Below, piece by piece: positions 40,750-61,866 of a DNA stretch of 64,000 nucleotides. A model generated the notes under the pieces. That model saw nothing but the letters and a program-made list of their open reading frames with translations, searched no databases and was not told where the DNA came from. The stretch's first letter is position 1, and each line of letters starts with the position of its first letter. A program made the translations under genes and the position numbers. This DNA comes from Vitis vinifera (taxonomy: Eukaryota; Streptophyta; Magnoliopsida; Vitales; Vitaceae), in NCBI RefSeq assembly GCF_030704535.1, contig NC_081808.1, forward strand, positions 18,226,501 through 18,290,500. The letters are read 5' to 3'.

Positions 40750-48044
<7,295 letters not shown>

Positions 48045-48604: not shown

Positions 48605-49574
48605 TGTCAAATGAGTTTTTTAAGTATTTTTCCAAAACGCTGCAAATAAGTTTTTGTATTGATTTTTTAAAATTTTAAAAATATTTCATAAATTTAACCA
48701 ATCACTTAAAAGTGTATTTGGTAGTGATTAAATTTTTGTATTGATTTTTCAAAATTTTAAAAATATTTCATAAATTTAACCAATCACTTAAAAGTGTATT
48801 TGGTAGTGATTCGAAAAAACGTTTCTAATTTTTTTAACACTTAAATGGTATAAAATTTCAAGTATTAAAAATATTAGAAGTGTTTTCTAAAATCACTATC
48901 AAACATATTCTTAAAGCGCATTTAAGAGTGATTCTAAAAAATATTTTTATACTTTAATGATAAAAAATTTTAAGTACCAAAAATATTAAAAACACTTCAT
49001 AAAATCACTACCAAAAGAACTCTTAATTTAAAAAAAAATATTTTTTTAAAATTAAAAATATTAATTAGAATTGAATCTAAAAATTATTATTATATATTTT
49101 TTAAAATTTATTTCATTTATTTTCTTCAATTACATAAATATTAAATAATTTTAAAATATATAAAATTTTACCTAACTTTAATATTATTTTACTTTTTCAT
49201 ATTTGTTTAATAATGAAATGAGAAAATGATTTTCTTTAACATTCTTTTTTTCTGAAGTACTTTTCGAGAAATAGCAGCATTAAAAAACTCTTTCAAATAT
49301 GATTTAAAAATAAGAATAATTTAAAAGACTTTAATATTTTAATTAAATAAAAATATTTTTCTTATTTTGTATTCACGCACTGATTCTTTCTAAACATAAA
49401 TGAGAGAAGTATAAAACTCACGTTTATCCAAATATTTTTCAATGTTCAAAAAAATAGTTATTTTTATGAATAAAATTAATTGTTATTTTTATTAACTTAT
49501 TAAAAATGAGTATTTTAATGTTGAAAAAAAAGAGTATATTTTCAAAAATTCCCAAAGAAATGTCTTAATCACAA
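48605..49574 (+). repeat. Interspersed AT-rich repeat, copy 1 (copy 2 at 60,958-61,866)
   Basis: The copies align from TGTCAAATGAGTTTTT to AAGAAATGTCTTAATCACAAA in the same orientation over about 0.9 kb. Copy 1 has an extra 82-bp tandem duplication (48,651-48,729 and 48,733-48,811; unit TTTTTGTATTGATTTTT to GTATTTGGTAGTGATT). It is non-coding. The family is not recognised; probably a non-autonomous transposon. Confidence 0.7.
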
Positions 49575-49747
49575 ACCCTAGAAGAAGCTTAAAGCTTCCT
49601 TCTTGTCATTTTTGGGATCCAGTCCATGGTATCTTTGGATTCGTCTATGTATGGAAGAGAGAGATCCACTCGAAGCGCATGGAAGAGAAGACACAAATGA
49701 AATGTAGAAACAAAAATGAGAATAAATAAGGAACCATTTCTAGAAGA
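49575..49747. other. Short unique stretch left of the hAT element
   Basis: No feature is seen. The minus-strand open frame here crosses the transposon end and is not a gene. Confidence 0.4.
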
Positions 49748-49755
49748 AGCCCTCT
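49748..49755. repeat. Left target-site duplication of the hAT element
   Basis: AGCCCTCT, identical to 58,632-58,639. Eight bases is the hAT hallmark. Confidence 0.92.
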
Positions 49756-49985
49756 TAGGATTGGCAACGAGGTGGGTTTGGGCCGGGCCACCCTTGCCCC
49801 ATTCCCGTCCCAATTATCTGAATCTCTTCCCCATCCCCGTCCCAAACCCGGGGCGGGTTAATGTGTCCCGTTCCCGTTTAGAATAGACTTGATAATCCCA
49901 TCCCCGTACCAAATGTGTTTTCGGGGCGGGGCGGGGCTCGGGTTCGGGTTCGAGTTCGGGTATTGGGTTTTTCCCAGTTTGAAAA
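49756..49985. repeat. hAT left terminal and subterminal region
   Basis: The terminal 12 bp TAGGATTGGCAA is followed by GC-rich repeats of the type CCCCATCCCCGTCCC and GGGGCGGGGCGGGGCTCGGG, which contrast sharply with the AT-rich surroundings. Such subterminal repeats are likely transposase binding sites (inference from hAT family). Confidence 0.75.
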
Positions 49986-50820
49986 ATTCTGTGACATAGG
50001 TTCCATGGTTATTTTGCTGTCTTATTCAACATCACAATGATATAGATTGCAACTCTTAAAAACATCAACAATTAGCATTTTCTTCACATACTATTTAGCA
50101 TTCAGTCAATGTGGCAAAACACAAATTTATTTTCAATAAATATACAATCTTTTGAATCTGTTTTTCTATGGCAAAAAACACAACCTAAATAACAAACACA
50201 ACCACTACATGTGCCCACTCAGCAACATTCTTCTAGTGATACTCCTTTCTGCTAAAATTCCACTGTCACCTGATAAACAATTAACGAAATGGCTAATTGT
50301 GATGTTGCCCTACCACTTCAAACCTCTGAGATATAAAATAGTCAAGTAATTAAACTTCCAGTGGCCATTCAAATGGTGACCACAATGGATGACTCTGTAG
50401 CAACTGCAACCCACCTCTGTTATGCAGAAAATACTTCAGAGTTGGGTAACATTGGAAATCGGCATCACCTACATCCTTATACGATTACTTGTCCACTGTG
50501 CAACATCCACCAATAGCAATGTGCAGAAGATGAGCATAAAGCTTCAGATGCGTAATGTACATGTCTACATCAATTTGCCTTTGGGAATTGGGAAAAAGTG
50601 CAGCCTTAACCAAAGACATTAAGTTTATGGTTTTTTTGTTTCTTGTCCCAGAATATATGGCTGGAACTTAGACCATTTGAAAGAAAAATGGAACATTCTA
50701 TACGTTACTCAAACTAACAACAGAATGCAGCTAATTCTCCACAGGGCACATCTGAATACAAGTAAAATGCATTTTATTAGTGACATCAACAGAAGTGCAG
50801 TGTAGCTACATTGCACAAAC
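49986..50820. other. Inside hAT: unassigned segment beyond the pfkB fragment
   Basis: No coding homology was recognised. It could be intron or 3' region of the captured pfkB gene, or transposon DNA. Confidence 0.35.
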
Positions 50821-51168
50821 CTCTCTTCCACATTTTGCAAGGCATCTATTAGAACCTAGTCTCACCACTGCCCATTGGCAGTGCTTAGCAAGAAATTCAA
50901 GAGCAGCCTCAGGACTAGCATTTTCGTCATCTCTACAACCATCATAAGAGAAATTAGCACCATTTACCACAAATTGCACCAAAAATTTTAAGCTGGATGA
51001 GGAGGATTAATTCTCTTTCATCACCGATTGTTTTAGCATGATAGGTTAGGAAAAATCAATTGGCAATCACCTTAACAGCTCTCTTGTTTCATCCTCATTG
51101 GCAAAGCAAAGATCTATATCCCCTGATTGCAGTAACTCTAGAAGAGGTCCTCTAAAGTTCCGAACCAT
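50821..51168 (-). pseudogene. Captured pfkB-type carbohydrate kinase fragment (two exons)
   Basis: Minus-strand exon 51,168-51,071 (MVRNFRGPLLELLQSGDIDL...) is joined by GT-AG (AAG|GTGATT ... TTGTAG|AGATGA) in frame to exon 50,932-50,821 (NASPEAALEFLAKHCQWAVV...CGREV), followed by a further donor-like GTTTGT. The string FANEDET..LL and the following WAVVRLGSN match the middle of plant pfkB-family fructokinase/ribokinase-like proteins. The N-terminal substrate-binding part and the C-terminal GAGD catalytic motif are missing. With introns retained, it was copied from DNA, not from mRNA. The frame is undamaged, so capture is fairly recent or the piece is conserved. Confidence 0.8.
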
Positions 51169-51826
51169 CTGGCCAAGGTAAAAAAAAAAAAAAAACAATG
51201 GTTAAAAGAGACAATTCCTCACCCAGTAATTCAGAACAAGTCTATTCCAGTGCATGAGTAGGATATTGCAGTCAAGATTTATTTCCTTAGCAGTGGCTGG
51301 AGCATAAAAAAGAACATGTCGAAGTAGCAAATGCAACAAACATATTATCCTAATAATGCATTATAAAATGAAGCCAATAAAATCACTAAAATGCAACAAA
51401 TGGAATGATAACTAGTATCAGCAATTGAAGGGGCATAATAGCTAAAAATTTTAAATCCTAAATATCAGTAGTAACAAGTAAATCGCATCTCTAGAATGAG
51501 CATCCAATCTGACATAATGCATAGTTCTACAGTGACTGCTTCACAAAATGACAGCATCATTATCTTATCTGCCAAATATTATCATCACAACTGGGCAAAG
51601 TGGTTTTAATACAGTTACCACAGCCTGATCCTGTCAGAATGAAGATGTAAAAACAGGCCGCCTCTATAAATGTCACATAGATGCCACTTAAGCATTATTC
51701 ATTTGGGAAGCCAAAGTATGGCTCCACTTTCAAACAGGATTATATTATGTAGAAAAACAGGGTGCCTTAAGTATACTTAATTGTTAAACATCACATTATG
51801 CACTCAAACCATCTAACAATAAGTAC
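51169..51826. other. Inside hAT: junction between captured pfkB and CRK fragments
   Basis: No coding homology is seen. It should contain the join between two source genes (or flanking introns of each), but the exact breakpoint is not visible. An A-run of about 17 lies at 51,181-51,196 on the plus strand. Confidence 0.35.
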
Positions 51827-53969
51827 CTTCTAGCTTCTTCATCTCGTACTTTTGCATCAAACTCTTTACTGTGAGGATACTTAGGCAAGCTTGAAGGATC
51901 ACAAGGAAGTGGCTTTACTGTAAAGAACTGGGAAACATAAATCAAAACAAGTCAAGAACTACTACAAGAGAGAGAGAGAGGAGAAATCAATTAAAAAAGA
52001 AGGAAAGGGCTCCCAAAGGACCCAATTTCTCCAGAATTTCATACCTCACTTTTAAGAGCAGAGGCTGCAGATCCACGATCAGTAGGATCTATGGAAAGAA
52101 GTGTTTCCATAAGCCCTAATGCAGGTGTAGGAAAGTCTTTAAATTTTTCTGCAACACAGCGCCTATAAGGCTGTTGGGGCTTAAATATGGTTGCATGTGG
52201 CAACTTTGATTTTCTCCAATAATCCTCAGATGGAGAGCCACAAAGCTTGAAAATTTTATGCAACTGTTCCACCTACAAAGGAGAAGAACCAAACTTAATG
52301 AGGACATCCTAAAGTTGAAGAAGTAGATGGAGATGTTACTTGATTAGTGGCAGGCCCAACGAAATAATTAAATAGAAAGAATGGGGGCATAGATTCAAAA
52401 TTCTTCAATGAAGATAAGCAAAAATAGAATGAACAGACTCACAATAGAATATAAGAATGAAATTTTTTCCCTTCAATTCATTAGTTATAATGGGCTAGAC
52501 TATAATTTAAACCAGCCCACATCCTATAGAGTCTACAGCTGCCAACTCCACCATCTCCACCAATAATAGCACCCCCACTAACAGAAGCATCCTTACCATT
52601 ATCAACCACCAACCACTGTATTGCCACCATGTCAACCCATAACATGAACTTCCTTCACCACCAGGCAACCACCACCAACCATCATACTACCAGCACCACC
52701 AACATTGCACTACCTCTAAGCCCACTTCCCACCTACACACCATCACAACCTTAGTTGTTAAAATCCTACAATGTACCATTCACAACCTATAATTGCAAAG
52801 TGAAACTCAACTGGATTATTTGATTCCAGATCTAAACCGTTTTTTTCCAAGAACTACTTCAAACCCCTCCTTAATTTTACAATGATATAAATCCTAACTG
52901 CCATCAATAATTCTGACTTTAATTGAAAGCCAAGTGGTATTGTTTTGTACAAAATAATAGACTCTAATTCTCTTTTTTTTTTTTTTTTTTTTTTTAACTT
53001 TTTCCTTTTTATAGCAAGAAGATGGATTAATTGACAAAACCGCATGTTCATGCTAATAAATTGTAAACTCCAAACACTGAAATCTGTTCCTAGCATCCAA
53101 TGTGAAATAATTCCAAAGCAACTTCAATGTAAAGTGATGAACCCAAAGATAAGCCAAGTCTTTGGAAACTATCTCCAATTTGCACCATAATCTGCCACAA
53201 TTTTTGCATTTTGGAAACCATTCCAACATGAGAATCTCACTTTTAATCTGAAATTTATAACGGAAATTTTCATAATGATTGAGACACTATTTCACAGTTT
53301 ATAAATGTGATATAAAAAATCTTCTATGCAGATTTTGTACCACTAGAAACTTCAAGGTGTTGCAAGGGAAATTCATCACCCAGCAGCATAAGTGAGGGCA
53401 AGTTTGGGGCTTGGACTTTATCGTTTAAAATCACATAGGTAGCAAACTTCAGCTGGATTGTTGAGCCTCATTTTCAGTGAGACTAAAAAAAAAGAGTGAT
53501 TATTATAACATGTTACCTAACACAAATTAAAATGGAAAGTTTCAGTGTTCAGCACTAGTTTGCCATCAAACAGCCATTAAGAGTAAACCTCTTTTCCAAC
53601 ATTTTAGTCATGATCCTGAGATGAATGTCACCATTTTTATTTTTTTTATTTTTTTCATATGCCTGAAAGTAAGCAGGTAAAATCAGACTCAATTACTGTT
53701 AGTATTTTACATCCAATATTATGTTCAAAACAGAACTCTAATAACAACAAATGCTAGGTGTTTTTTCCAAAGAGAAAAAATATGTAGATTGCACAATCAT
53801 GATTCCATGAATAACAGGCAGTACTCTGCACATCTTGTGGGAAATAAATAAGCATAAATGATACCTCTGTTCTTCCTGGCATTATAGGCTTGCCAGCATA
53901 TAGTTCAGCCAGTATACAACCAGTGCTCCATAAATCCACAACAGTCCCATAGTAAGTGGCTCCAAGTAA
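51827..53969 (-). pseudogene. Captured Cdc2-related (CRK/CDK9-12-like) kinase fragment (three exons)
   Basis: Minus-strand exons: about 53,969-53,865 ([20 protein letters not shown]...IMPGRTE), 52,272-52,045 (VEQLHKIFKLCGSPSEDYW...GSAASALKSE) and 51,927-51,827 (FFTVKPLPCDPSSLPKYPHS...VRDEEARR). Joints are GT-AG and in frame. The sequence follows plant Cdc2-related kinases from the end of the activation segment to the end of the kinase domain; the P-loop, catalytic Lys, HRD and DFG are absent, so no kinase activity is possible. Introns include a T-run of about 25 (52,973-52,996) and a CCACCA-rich stretch (52,540-52,740). At the upstream border a 17-bp sequence is duplicated, suggesting repair-type joining. 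Confidence 0.88.
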
Positions 53970-54017
53970 GAGCACACAAGCCTGTTACCATCCAAAGCAC
54001 TAAGAGCACACAAGCCT
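53967..54017. repeat. 17-bp direct repeat at the edge of the CRK fragment
   Basis: TAAGAGCACACAAGCCT occurs at 53,967-53,983 and 54,001-54,017. Kinase homology stops within the first copy. It looks like filler DNA made when double-strand break repair joined captured segments. Confidence 0.7.
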
Positions 54018-54805
54018 CTCAATAAAGTTAATGCCTCAGGCTTTAAACCCAATCCAACATATTAAAGCACATTTTTACAGTCATATTGAAATCATTCCAT
54101 CATAAATTATTCTTCAACAAAATTGCTTCTGAAAACAATGCAAACAATAAAATAAAATAAAATAAAAACTTCAACCTGATTTGTTGTTGCTAGTGTTCCT
54201 CAAAGATTCTTAGGTGTTATTTCAGCAATAAAGACTGGTACCTGTTCATCCAGAGGAAGAGAGAGATGTTTAATGCTTCTTAAGTTGAATAATTATTGGA
54301 ACTTCATATCCAAGAAGAGAAGCTTCTCATAAAAGCATACCACATAAGAAAGAACACCAATTCCATATAAGATGAAGAAATCTCCTAAAATAAAGGGAAA
54401 AAGATCCCTACATTGAAACATCCAGAGGGTAAAACATGAAGAAAAGCATATACAAATATATCAAAATTATAATTGAAAATTGGAGATATCCTACAAAAGA
54501 TAAAGTAGATTGTGAGCCATCCTGCTATACAGATCATGGATGACATCCCCATGGCCTGATTCCACCCACAAAGAAAGCAAGTTGTGAGAGAAGGTTTGTG
54601 TAGGAAAAATGCTCAAATATGAACAATCTTGACAGAATATCCTCCATCTTACCCCTTTTCGACCACAACAATCTGCCCACTTATGATAGCACCAATCATT
54701 ACCCCTTTTTTGACTAATAGAGTGGGTTAGGATTCGAATGAACAGGGCATAGAAAATAATAACAATAATGTAGTCACTGAAACAAAAATGATTACAAGTT
54801 CTTAC
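54018..54805. other. Inside hAT: unassigned segment between captured kinases
   Basis: No clear coding homology. At about 54,640-54,710 the minus strand reads MIGAIISGQI in one frame and GRKGVRW in the next, faintly like the start of a sugar transporter signature; too weak to call. Confidence 0.3.
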
Positions 54806-54867
54806 CTCAGGTGCCCGGAAGCCCTTGGTTCCAACACAAGGGCCCTCTCTCTTTTGCTTTCCATTTC
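54806..54867 (-). pseudogene. Captured CDC7-like kinase exon
   Basis: A 62-bp minus-strand exon with an acceptor TTCCTAG|GAAATG and a donor CACCTGAG|GTAAG, encoding NGKQKREGPCVGTKGFRAPE. The string GPCVGTKGFRAPE is the activation-segment / APE motif of plant CDC7-type kinases (which activate replication origins with Dbf4). Only this exon is recognised; the following exon is not present downstream. Its small size leaves some doubt, but the match is specific. Confidence 0.75.
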
Positions 54868-54934
54868 CTAGGAACAAATTAAATGTGATTGACTCTAGAA
54901 GAAAAGATAGATTTATCAACCCAAATCATCCAAG

Positions 54935-55117
54935 TTATTTAGGCAGTATACCTTTGTTCTTTAATAATCTAGCACCAGCAACAACAATTCCGAGAGGCAT
55001 TGGAGAAATATAAACACTAATGCCCCAACAAGCAGCCCCAACATCTTCATTTACTGCAATTAGGTCAGCAATAATGCCTTCTTTGCCAAAAAATACAACT
55101 TTGATGCTTAATACCAT
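54935..55117 (-). other. Unidentified possible captured exon
   Basis: An open stretch on the minus strand (VVFFGKEGIIADLIAVNEDV, GAACWGISVYISPMPLGIVV, AGARLLKNKG) has protein-like composition and a hydrophobic segment, and ends near a GTATAC donor-like site. I do not recognise the family. It lies just upstream of the CDC7-like exon and may come from another captured gene, or be chance. Confidence 0.3.
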
Positions 55118-55518
55118 GGATATAACAATATAAATTATAACATTAAGATAAAAATGAAAAATAAATAAATATCACAACTACAACATATAAAAATAGAAAA
55201 TCTCCATGGATATGGCAACATTAAAAAAAAACATTAAACATAAAGTCTTCCCAACATATTCATACATATAACCACATTAAGATTAAAAAGAGCATTAAAA
55301 TAAAAAGTGTATCTTGGGTCCCAAAATATATCTCCAATACCAACTTCACTTCAAGAAAAGAACCTACAGCAAGAGTGATTCATCATCTTCATCCATGATT
55401 GTGAGTTTGCCCCCTGGGTTAACAAGCAAAGAATCACCCAATAAAAGTAAGAATAACAAGAAACAACTTTATTAAAAAATTCAACATAGTTGTTTCATAA
55501 GATTGAAAATATTTTAGA

Positions 55519-57573
55519 TTAACTACCTTCCATTTCATTTCCCAACCAACTTTGAGCACACATTAAGGCCTCCAAAGTATTTGGATGGAGTCTACTACGA
55601 TGTTTTGATACCATCCTACCACCCGTACTGAAGGCTGACTCAGATGCAACTGTAGATACTGGAATGGCATAGATATCTCGAACAATCATTTGTAAAGTCG
55701 GATACTTAATACCATTTGTTTTCCACCAACTCAAAACATCAAAATCTAAAATCCTTGGCAAAACAGTTTCTTCTAAGTAGTAGTCTAACTCCGACTTCGC
55801 ATGACCTTCTTCACTAGTACTATGAACAAATAAGTCAAACTTCGAAAGAGGATCTTGTTCGTCATAGGTCAACTCAAAGAGATTTGAAACTGATGAAGCA
55901 CCATGAGATGAAGTTTGTTGACCCATCTTAGACTTTGATTGGTACTTAGAAAGCAAATCATAACATAGTTGACGAATTTTTCCAATCTCACTTGAAGCTT
56001 CAGACCCATACATTATCGGAAAATAAAATTCTAAAATCTTCATCTTGTATCTTGGGTCCAATACAACTGCTATTGCCATTACAATATGACATCCACTCCA
56101 ATACTTGTCAAATTTTTCTAACATACTTGATGTCATTGTGCTTACAACTTCATTTGAGCAAATCAACCAATCATACAATGCTTCTTTAATCTCACACACT
56201 TTGATGAAAAATGTATTCGCAGTGGGATAATTTCGCCCTGAGAACAACTTTGTTATATTATAAAACAATTTCAGCCTTTCACATATTTCTCCTGCTAAAT
56301 TCCATTCTTCCTCTGATGGCACTATGGTGTAGAGCTTTTCACGTTGCTTCAAACACGGGAACACATCTTTATAAGTTATAGCTATTGATAGCATCAAGTA
56401 TGTAGAATTCCATCGTGTTTTACAATCAAGGCATAGCTTCTTGTTACATGGAAGACGCAATTGGCGAGCTGCATCTTCAAACTTTTCCACTCTTGATGGT
56501 GTTGCTGACCAATATGCAACACTCTCACGAATTTTTTCAATTTCTACTCTAATGACATCTAGACCTTCCTTCACAATCAAGTTCAAGATATGTGCTGCAC
56601 ATTGCATATGAAAGATTTTTCCATTTAATAAAAGTGAACCACTTGAAGATAATTTCTCTGAGAGGATATCAATCATGCCATCATTACTTGAGCAATTATC
56701 CACGGTGATTGTAAATAGTTTCCTATCCATATTCCAATCCAATAAAAAATCTAATAACACATCAGAAAGAACTTCTTTTGTATGTGGAGGAGGCACATAA
56801 ACAAACCTACATTAAACGATATATAAAAACATATTATTAATATAAGTGACATCATTAAATGATAATAAAATAAAATAAAAATTGAAAACTTGAACAAATA
56901 ACATATCTAACCTTACAATATGATGATGTAGTAACCAAGACTCATCAATGTAATGCACAGTGATAGCCATGTAACCTTTCTTCTGATTAGATGTCCACAT
57001 ATCAATTGTGATAGCCATTCTAGTTTCAAGCTTTTCCAAGTAGCTACTCATTTTCCCTTTCTCAAACTCATAAATCTTCATTATGTCATCCTTAATTGTA
57101 TTGCGGGAAACCATCTTAAACAAAGGTTGAAGGCTACTAGCAAAATCTCTAAAGCCTGCATGGTCAACAATTGAAAGAGGGTACTCATGCAATATAATTG
57201 CACATGCAAGCTTCTCTCTTGAGATATCTTGATCAAATGTGAAACCACCAATTTGCACTTTTCCATAGCCTTTTCTCTCTATTGCTAAAAATTGTTGCTT
57301 AATATCAACATTTCTCCGTTTGATGCACCTATCTAAATGTACATGCAAATGTTTAGTCCCATTCTTACTATCGACCTTGAGTTTTGATTTACAATGCTTA
57401 CAAATAGCATAATCTTGTCCATCTATTATGACTTTCTCAAACTCATTCCAAACAATTGAAGTCAGCTTTCTTTTTTTACATGTCAATGATCCATCAGTAG
57501 TTGAAGTACTACCTGTAGCTGTATTAGAACCAGTACTTGGCATGAAAAAAATTTCCTCCTCTTCTGATGTCAT
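55519..57573 (-). CDS. hAT transposase (BED zinc finger, RNase-H fold, hAT dimerisation domain)
   Basis: Two exons, 57,573-56,912 and 56,806-55,519, joined by AAG|GTTAGA ... ATGTAG|GTTTGT in frame into 649 residues. Residues 37-83 form a BED zinc finger (Cys58, Cys61, His75-His79, Cys83). The RNase-H-like catalytic core shows the hAT acidic triad by motif: Asp191 in ITIDMWTS, Asp257 in TITVDNCSSND and Glu610 in VASESAFSTGGR. A CxxH signature (QCAAH, 290-293) and DPRYK are also present. The C-terminal dimerisation domain covers about 560-646 (LDYYLEE, LSWWKTN, YPTLQMIVRDI, LEALMCAQSWL). No stop or frame damage. It excises and inserts the element by cut-and-paste, leaving 8-bp duplications. The start Met is followed by an acidic EEEE tract. 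Confidence 0.95.
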
Positions 57574-58054
57574 TTTGTTGAATCCTTAGGATATTCCGAA
57601 ATAGTTTGAAACCAATTTAACCACAATAAAATTCTATTTGTATGTTTCTGGAAGCATGAATAATATGTTTCCAGAAGTTGTTTAGAAAAAAAAAATAGGG
57701 TTTTCATCTATGAAATTAGATCATTCTCTTATAACAACTTGTTTATGCAAAAACATGAATACCAAAATTGAACCCTAAAATAATGAAATTATAACAACTT
57801 GTTTCTGCAAAAACGTGAATACCAAAATTGAACCCTAAAATAATGAAAAACCCATAAATCATCATTCTTATTTGTATAAACCCCAAAAATCAGTTTATAT
57901 GTGGATGAAATTGATTTGGACAGGGTGAAAAATAAAGTCAGAAACATGAACAATAAGAGCCAAAGACGAAAGTTGATTCAACTGAAAAATACATATAAAA
58001 CGAAGACCAAGAGTGCATATAAATTACAAATCTACTGATAAACAATTGAAAAAA
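57574..58054. repeat. hAT 5' leader with a 60-bp tandem duplication
   Basis: Non-coding DNA upstream of the transposase. Units 57,729-57,788 and 57,789-57,848 (ATAACAACTTGTTT(A/C)TGCAAAAAC...) are nearly identical. Probably 5'-UTR intron. Confidence 0.7.
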
Positions 58055-58500
58055 CCTCAAACTCATAAACTAAAACCAAAAAAAAAATTGAAAAACAAGC
58101 CAAATTTTAACAAAGCTTCAAAAGTTAAGGTTTTCTTACCTGGAAGGAAGAAATCCACAAGAACTCCAATAATCACTTGTTTACGAGATTGAAAATCTGG
58201 TTTTTAGAACAAAGATTTTGATTTTAAGGCCACTCGAACTGAGAAGATGAAACCTTTCTTCCAAGAGAGAAAAACCCTAAACCCATAAACTAAAACCAAA
58301 AAAAATTTGAAAAACAAGCCAAATTTTTAACAAAGCTTCAAAAAATTAGGGTTTTCTTACCTGGAATGAAGGAATCCACAAGAACTCCAATAATCACTTG
58401 TTTATGAGATTGCAAATCTGGTTTTTAGAGCAAAGATTTTGCTTTCAAGGCCGTTCGAACTGAGAAGACGAAGTCTTTCTTCCGAGAGAGAAAAACCCTA
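58055..58500 (-). repeat. 220-bp tandem duplication of the hAT transposase leader/promoter
   Basis: Two units, about 58,055-58,279 and 58,280-58,500, both carrying AAACAAGCCAAATTTT, GGTTTTCTTACCTGGAA and AAGAACTCCAATAATCACTT. On the transposase strand each unit contains TTCCAGGTAAGAA, a good splice donor, so the first (untranslated) exon appears duplicated. Confidence 0.8.
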
Positions 58501-58559
58501 AAACTCTAGGAAGGATAAATTATATATACAGAGGAGATTTTGGGTATTTTATAATATTT

Positions 58560-58631
58560 AAGGGCAAATTGGTAATTCTAATTCCGGGGCGGGGCGGGTG
58601 ACCCGATTGACCCACGAAATTGCCATTCCTA
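58560..58631. repeat. hAT right terminal and subterminal region
   Basis: GGGGCGGGGCGGGTGACCCG lies at about 58,586-58,605, followed by the terminus TTGCCATTCCTA, which pairs with TAGGATTGGCAA at the left end. Confidence 0.85.
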
Positions 58632-58639
58632 AGCCCTCT
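58632..58639. repeat. Right target-site duplication of the hAT element
   Basis: AGCCCTCT, a perfect copy of 49,748-49,755. Confidence 0.92.
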
Positions 58640-60957: not shown

Positions 60958-61866
60958 TGTCAAATGAGTTTTTTTAAGTATTTATCCAAAACACTATAAA
61001 TAAATTTGGTATTGATTTTTCAAAATTTTAAAAATATTTCATAAATTTAACCAATCACTTAAAGTGTATTTGGTTGTGATACTGGAATAGATTTTTAATT
61101 TTTCTAACGCTTAAATGATAAAAATTTTCAAGTATTAAAAATATTAGAAGTGTTTTTTAAAATCATTATCAAATATATTCTTAAACTGTATTTGAGAGTG
61201 ATTCTAAAAAATATTTTTAATATTTTTAATACTTTAATGATAAAAAATTTTAAGTATAAAAAATATGAAAAATGGTTTTTACCATCACTAATAAATGAAC
61301 TCTTAATTTTTTTAAAAAAACATTTTTTAGATTAAAAGTATTAATTAGAATCACTATGAAAGGAATCAAAAAATTATTGTTATATATTTCCTTAAATTTA
61401 TTTTATTTATTTTCCTCAATTATATAAATATTAAATAATTTTAAAATATATAAAATTTTACCTAACTTTAATTATATTTTATTTTTTCATATTTGTTTAA
61501 CAATGAAACGAGAAAATCAATTTTTTTAACATTCCTTTTCTCTTGAGTACTTTTTGAGAAATAGCAACATTTAAAAAACTCCTTCAAATATTATTTAAAA
61601 ATAAGAATAATTTAAAAGACTTTAATATTTTAATTAAATAAAAATATTTTTCTTATTTTGTATTCACACACTGATTATTTCTTAACATGAATGAGAGAAG
61701 TATAAAACTCATGTTTATCCAAATATTTTTCAATGTTTAAAAAATAATTATTTTTATGAATAAAATTAATTGTTATTTTTATTAACTTATTAAAAATGAG
61801 TATTTTAATGATGAAAAAAAAAAGTATATTTTCAAAAATTCCCAAAGAAATGTCTTAATCACAAAG
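60958..61866 (+). repeat. Interspersed AT-rich repeat, copy 2
   Basis: It matches 48,605-49,574 in the same orientation, minus the 82-bp tandem duplication. The 0.9-kb copies end at the same string CTTAATCACAAA and then diverge. Confidence 0.7.

Follow-up and report, generated by a model that had tools for sequence, protein, structure and literature searches.

A grapevine hAT transposon that probably carries pieces of host kinase genes beside a complete-looking transposase of its own

When the ends of a DNA transposon enclose pieces of host genes together with what looks like a working transposase, it has to be asked whether these parts really belong to a single element, and whether that element took up the host pieces itself. 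A stretch of 64 kb of grapevine DNA, analysed here at its full length and referred to as the window, raises this question. Our reading, which we hold to be very likely, is that it contains an 8.9-kb hAT cut-and-paste transposon with a complete-looking transposase, intron-bearing pieces of a CRK (CDK-like kinase) gene and of a pfkB gene, and another kinase exon, all of them captured from DNA.

The hAT element itself is real, and its limits are given by the following features:

49756-58631: hAT element, 8,876 bp
49748..49755, no strand: left target-site duplication AGCCCTCT, adjoining the left terminus
49756..49767, plus strand: left terminal inverted repeat (TIR) TAGGATTGGCAA
58620..58631, minus strand: right terminal inverted repeat, which reads TAGGAATGGCAA on this strand
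58632..58639, no strand: right target-site duplication AGCCCTCT
49922..49935, plus strand: subterminal 14-mer CGGGGCGGGGCGGG, left end
58585..58598, plus strand: subterminal 14-mer CGGGGCGGGGCGGG, right end

The duplication is a perfect 8 bp on both sides, the termini form 12-bp TIRs with one mismatch (11/12 bases identical), and the subterminal DNA is GC-rich. These three traits had been put forward in the original prediction and are indeed seen at both ends, to which we can add the end-specific 14-mer, present in the window at 49922 and 58585 only. A third copy of AGCCCTCT lies at 47270 in the window, with 1.23 expected by chance. If the final A of the right-hand TIR is assigned to the duplication instead, one gets an alternative of 9 bp, AAGCCCTCT, at 49747-49755 and 58631-58639. 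We scanned the whole window for pairs of ends within 20 kb of each other that have an 8-bp duplication and inverted termini with a match of 11/12 or better; the single pair found is the hAT element, and because 7 of 20 Markov-resampled windows also yield such a pair, the plain form of this test is weak. Requiring hAT-type end letters, a condition set after the element had been seen, leaves the one observed pair against none in any of 60 resampled windows. The 8-bp duplication, the short hAT-type TIRs and, within the encoded protein, an RNase-H-like core followed by a C-terminal dimerisation domain are those of the hAT superfamily. We take both ends to come from one family, a single element being the simplest reading.

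The surroundings hold other repeats and genes. A pair of direct repeats (48731-49575 and 61002-61865, 88% identical over 868 aligned positions) flanks the element, coming within about 180 bp of the left terminus, and shows weaker similarity out to about 48592 and about 60945. Since no TG..CA ends are visible by eye, these are probably two copies of another repeat rather than LTRs. A GC-rich segment at 62.9-63.5 kb, in which CCGGAT/CCGGACAC words recur, resembles a portion of a retrotransposon LTR. Between 2.5 and 24 kb lies a tandem gene array (repeat family D2, 11 copies with a spacing of 1.7-3.3 kb), whose genes read as SAUR by their motifs. Grapevine SAUR clusters are reported on chromosomes 3 and 4 (PMC8584205). 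An apparently complete isopentenyl-diphosphate isomerase (IDI) gene occupies 40.7-48.1 kb on the minus strand, its hand-joined exons matching a PDB entry at 1.5e-74, and the hAT element sits some 1.7-1.9 kb upstream of the possible IDI starts. The VvIDI gene of grapevine is given as VIT_04s0023g00600 (PMC11197285). Together, the two loci make chromosome 4 the probable place of the window in the grapevine genome.

The transposase gene of the element is made of two exons:

56912..57573, minus strand: transposase exon 1, with a BED-type Cys/His set and the first Asp of the presumed triad
56807..56911, minus strand: transposase intron, 105 nt, GT..AG
55519..56806, minus strand: transposase exon 2, with the hAT-like RNase-H and Dimer_Tnp_hAT domains

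An undamaged transposase of 649 aa had been predicted, and this holds for the open frame and for the hAT domains, provided that the 105-nt intron is removed; unspliced, the gene consists of two minus-strand ORFs of 253 and 425 aa, and splicing joins them into 649 aa without stops. Four splice options leave the frame open, the 649-aa version being the one with the best donor by eye. Pfam recognises hAT-like_RNase-H (PF14372, 5.2e-31) and Dimer_Tnp_hAT (PF05699, 1.7e-30); zf-BED stays below its cut-off (0.0077), although the Cys/His set is present. Hermes, the hAT transposase of the housefly, is related to this protein by sequence: its chains make up four of the five PDB matches among those listed (best 7.2e-19), two of the four being labelled only 'transposase' within the same match group. 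Hermes is not known to carry captured genes. The presumed D, D, E catalytic residues are D191, D257 and E610. The last of these aligns with the Hermes ASER motif inside the main significant stretch, D191 aligns solely in a further, short stretch lacking significance of its own (i-Evalue 20), and D257 was placed by the motif TVDN alone. A comparison of the 425-aa part with viral contigs gave ten pattern matches, none of which was confirmed. Judged from its sequence, the transposase looks intact, and we infer that the element would be able to move with its own enzyme, now or recently. The stretch from the start of the transposase gene to the right terminus also contains a 60-bp tandem duplication (97%) and one of about 220 bp (80-91%), at 57729-57848 and 58050-58502, perhaps a duplicated promoter region.

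The host pieces that we recognise are all found on the left side of the element, ahead of the transposase gene, with which they share their orientation. They look like truncated scraps that stem from two, perhaps three, ordinary genes of a plant:

53865..53981, minus strand: CRK fragment, exon 1, 5'-truncated, its 5' acceptor being a guess
52273..53864, minus strand: CRK fragment intron, 1,592 nt
52045..52272, minus strand: CRK fragment, exon 2
51928..52044, minus strand: CRK fragment intron, 117 nt
51827..51927, minus strand: CRK fragment, exon 3
53967..54017, no strand: exact local duplication of 17 bp (53967-53983 and 54001-54017) where the CRK homology breaks off on its 5' side
51071..51168, minus strand: putative pfkB sugar-kinase fragment, exon 1
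50933..51070, minus strand: intron of the putative pfkB fragment, 138 nt, GT..AG, frame continuous
50821..50932, minus strand: putative pfkB fragment, exon 2, the 3' boundary of the piece being approximate
54806..54867, minus strand: 62-nt exon, very probably of a kinase activation segment (GTKGFRAPE), encoding NGKQKREGPCVGTKGFRAPE

Three kinase genes had been named as the sources, and they fared differently. The CRK piece is strongly confirmed: its three exons (51827-53981), once spliced, encode 148 aa of a CDK12/13-like C-lobe with matches to Pkinase in Pfam (2.3e-11) and to CDK13 (3.4e-24) and CDK12 (5.9e-24) in PDB, and both introns retain GT..AG. The pfkB identity of the two-exon piece is weakly supported by a Pfam match under the curated cut-off (3.3e-4) and by PDB matches to adenosine kinase (5e-6) and a sugar kinase (1.9e-5). 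The CDC7 identity stays putative: the 62-nt exon alone has no match in Pfam or PDB, and it is called CDC7-like after a motif, GTxGFRAPEV. That it is kinase-like follows from what happens when it is joined to the CRK exons: the junction is in frame, the Pkinase score rises from 44 to 55.8 bits (+11.8) and the profile extends upstream. When a short part of the CRK sequence is added to it, the exon can be aligned with the activation segments of CDKs, each of the three alignments shown having an insertion of 3 residues; it very probably represents a kinase activation segment.

An exact-motif scan of the six frames of the 64 kb, which intron-split copies escape and which was run without a positive control, found neither HRD..K..N nor GAGD, which we take to be the kinase catalytic loop and a pfkB motif, respectively. 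The pieces thus look like fragments, the remaining parts leaving no sign nearby. The introns kept in the CRK and pfkB pieces point to capture from genomic DNA and not from mRNA, while capture as such is suggested by the truncation of the pieces and by their context. The 17-bp duplication at the CRK edge exceeds the longest one (13 bp) in 30 resampled sequences and is possibly a repair scar, a reading that is kept at the level of a suggestion because, of ten other tiles taken from the window, seven have local duplications of at least 16 bp. Another open stretch of 78 aa, IADLIAVNEDVGAACWGISVYISPMPLGIVVAGARLLKNKG (54938-55171, minus strand), is coding-looking and could be a further captured exon; as a captured gene it matched no Pfam family up to an E of 1. 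Ten more stop-free segments between 50756 and 55010, a selection from those listed and not strictly the longest ten, were compared with Pfam: nine had no match and one a sub-threshold zinc-finger match (0.0096), taken as chance. The ratio of observed to expected CpG is 0.08-0.22 by segment over the captured part (50101-55518; captured exons 0.18), against 0.37-0.39 in the transposase (exons 0.37), 0.58-0.82 at the element ends and 0.33 in the window, the IDI gene having 0.47 in its approximate exons and 0.21-0.35 in its introns. The low values of the cargo could reflect a greater age of the pieces, or a methylation unlike that of their carrier, or just that they are intron-rich.

A hAT with an intact-looking transposase enclosing host gene fragments, as had been proposed, is therefore supported by the ends, the duplication, the hAT domains and the truncated, intron-bearing pieces. 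The at least three separate captures that had been predicted are a possible count, one of the fragments being 62 nt long, and the fragments may or may not have been spread by their own carrier. It had also been implied that such captures occur mainly in elements without transposase, which would make this one a novelty, and here the proposal fails because Benjak et al. (2008) described Hatvine-6 (hAT-6_VV) of grapevine, in which the transposase and TIRs are common to the copies, whereas what lies outside them is frequently unique to a copy and frequently shows high identity to host genes, exons as well as introns (PMC2528002). Potentially functional ORFs are reported there in 17 of 35 copies, of variable length, with a TIR of 13 bp and a duplication of 9 bp in the table, compared with 12 bp and 8 bp here (9 by the alternative reading). 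The likeness, drawn from the published description, lies in an own, intact-looking transposase accompanied by host exons and introns. The element studied here thus adds a well-preserved example to a kind that had been described before.

Other hATs resemble it in part. A study of maize found gene fragments in two Ds2 and nine Ds-l4 among 903 Ds-related elements, and its authors termed capture rare for hATs and were aware of no previous account of it (Du et al., 2011, PMC3260210), a statement that speaks for the original prediction and against hAT capture as a commonplace. Maize Ds2-22 and Ds-l4-354 share with the grapevine element the hAT ends, the 8-bp duplications and the presence of host fragments with introns still in place, which were thus captured from DNA, but Ds elements are non-autonomous (PMC3260210). 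The same difference holds for the Pack-hATs surveyed in rice and maize, which likewise have host coding fragments between hAT TIRs: they are non-autonomous by definition, so that the grapevine element, with its intact transposase ORF, is not one of them (PMC8903248). Metazoan Pack-TIRs, described as carrying fragments acquired through template switching or gap filling and with hATs accounting for 208 of 370, are found in animals, and four multicopy cases are mentioned (PMC8277862). The main text of a 2026 review of plant gene capture does not contain the word hAT (PMC13317346), and among the matches listed in a literature search by title, none names this particular grapevine element.

Our preferred history starts with a break or an excision gap opening in the hAT element; during the repair that begins there, template switching would copy host fragments into the element from DNA, not from mRNA. 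Template switching and gap repair have been put forward for TIR elements, hATs among them (PMC3260210, PMC8277862), and ours may belong with the capture-prone Hatvine-6 type. An identical, perfect target duplication would be left if the hAT had inserted without the kinase pieces and later gap filling had added them in situ, in which case the cargo never moved. The single-copy Pack-TIRs of 100 animal genomes are mostly ascribed to such transposition-independent gap filling (PMC8277862), whereas captures by the grapevine family Pifvine-3 are in some cases common to multiple copies and the variable region of Hatvine-6 is often unique or common to few elements (PMC2528002). Both histories thus occur in related elements, and we regard in-situ patching as possible but rather unlikely here. 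The arrangement of the cargo, between the left end and the transposase, is also what would be seen if a short element on the left and an autonomous one on the right had been joined, that is, if two neighbouring insertions of one hAT family had fused their outer ends as one unit around the enclosed DNA, a neighbour model that has been set out for Pack-TYPE elements (PMC8903248). A scan of the element's interior for inverted ends flanked by a duplication of 7-10 bp, however, found no such pair, and pieces of different genes would need prior adjacency or several rounds, which makes a composite origin improbable.

The lack of such an internal pair bears as well on a second mobile element that had gathered the kinase pieces before it inserted itself into an autonomous hAT of the plain sort. 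Collecting fragments of several genes is classically the work of Helitrons and Pack-MULEs, but the longest inverted repeat in 49.6-58.8 kb is an A/T-rich one of 42 nt and 71% (among the best 25 of 137 pairs) and the long direct repeats (among the best 20 of 49 families) are confined to 57.7-58.5 kb and so fall beyond the cargo, so we consider this very improbable. Least credible of all, and given hardly any weight, is that host genes of the locus decayed into the kinase pieces and that the left terminus is a chance match: that the three pieces are all on one strand would fit, yet the exact duplication, the 11/12 ends and the shared subterminal 14-mer contradict it, as does the result of the exact-motif scan of the window. 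Most likely, the fragments are passengers that have no function as proteins.

A more daring version of capture would have the element assemble an in-frame, exon-shuffled kinase, in which the 62-nt exon, with APE at its end, would be spliced onto the truncated CRK exon, both being oriented like the transposase. We deem this highly improbable. If it were true, and the product transcribed, an autonomous hAT would make and spread a chimeric kinase C-lobe, a possible decoy for CRK partners; with no catalytic-loop motif it would hardly be an active kinase. A single continuous chimera of all three parts was rejected, CRK exon 3 leading into pfkB exon 1 out of frame. The phase-compatible junction of the kinase exons is an unproved extra of this example.

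Elements of this kind matter for how gene capture is counted. In the packFinder pipeline a transposase match leads to the label 'autonomous', and only the remaining elements are scored for captured genes (PMC8903248), so that self-driving carriers are under-counted. An element like this one would escape such capture counts; Benjak et al. made a similar point on detection (PMC2528002). The insertion upstream of the IDI gene makes its presence or absence among cultivars of interest. The locus offers a case, clean and open to annotation, in which a hAT that looks autonomous carries host cargo.
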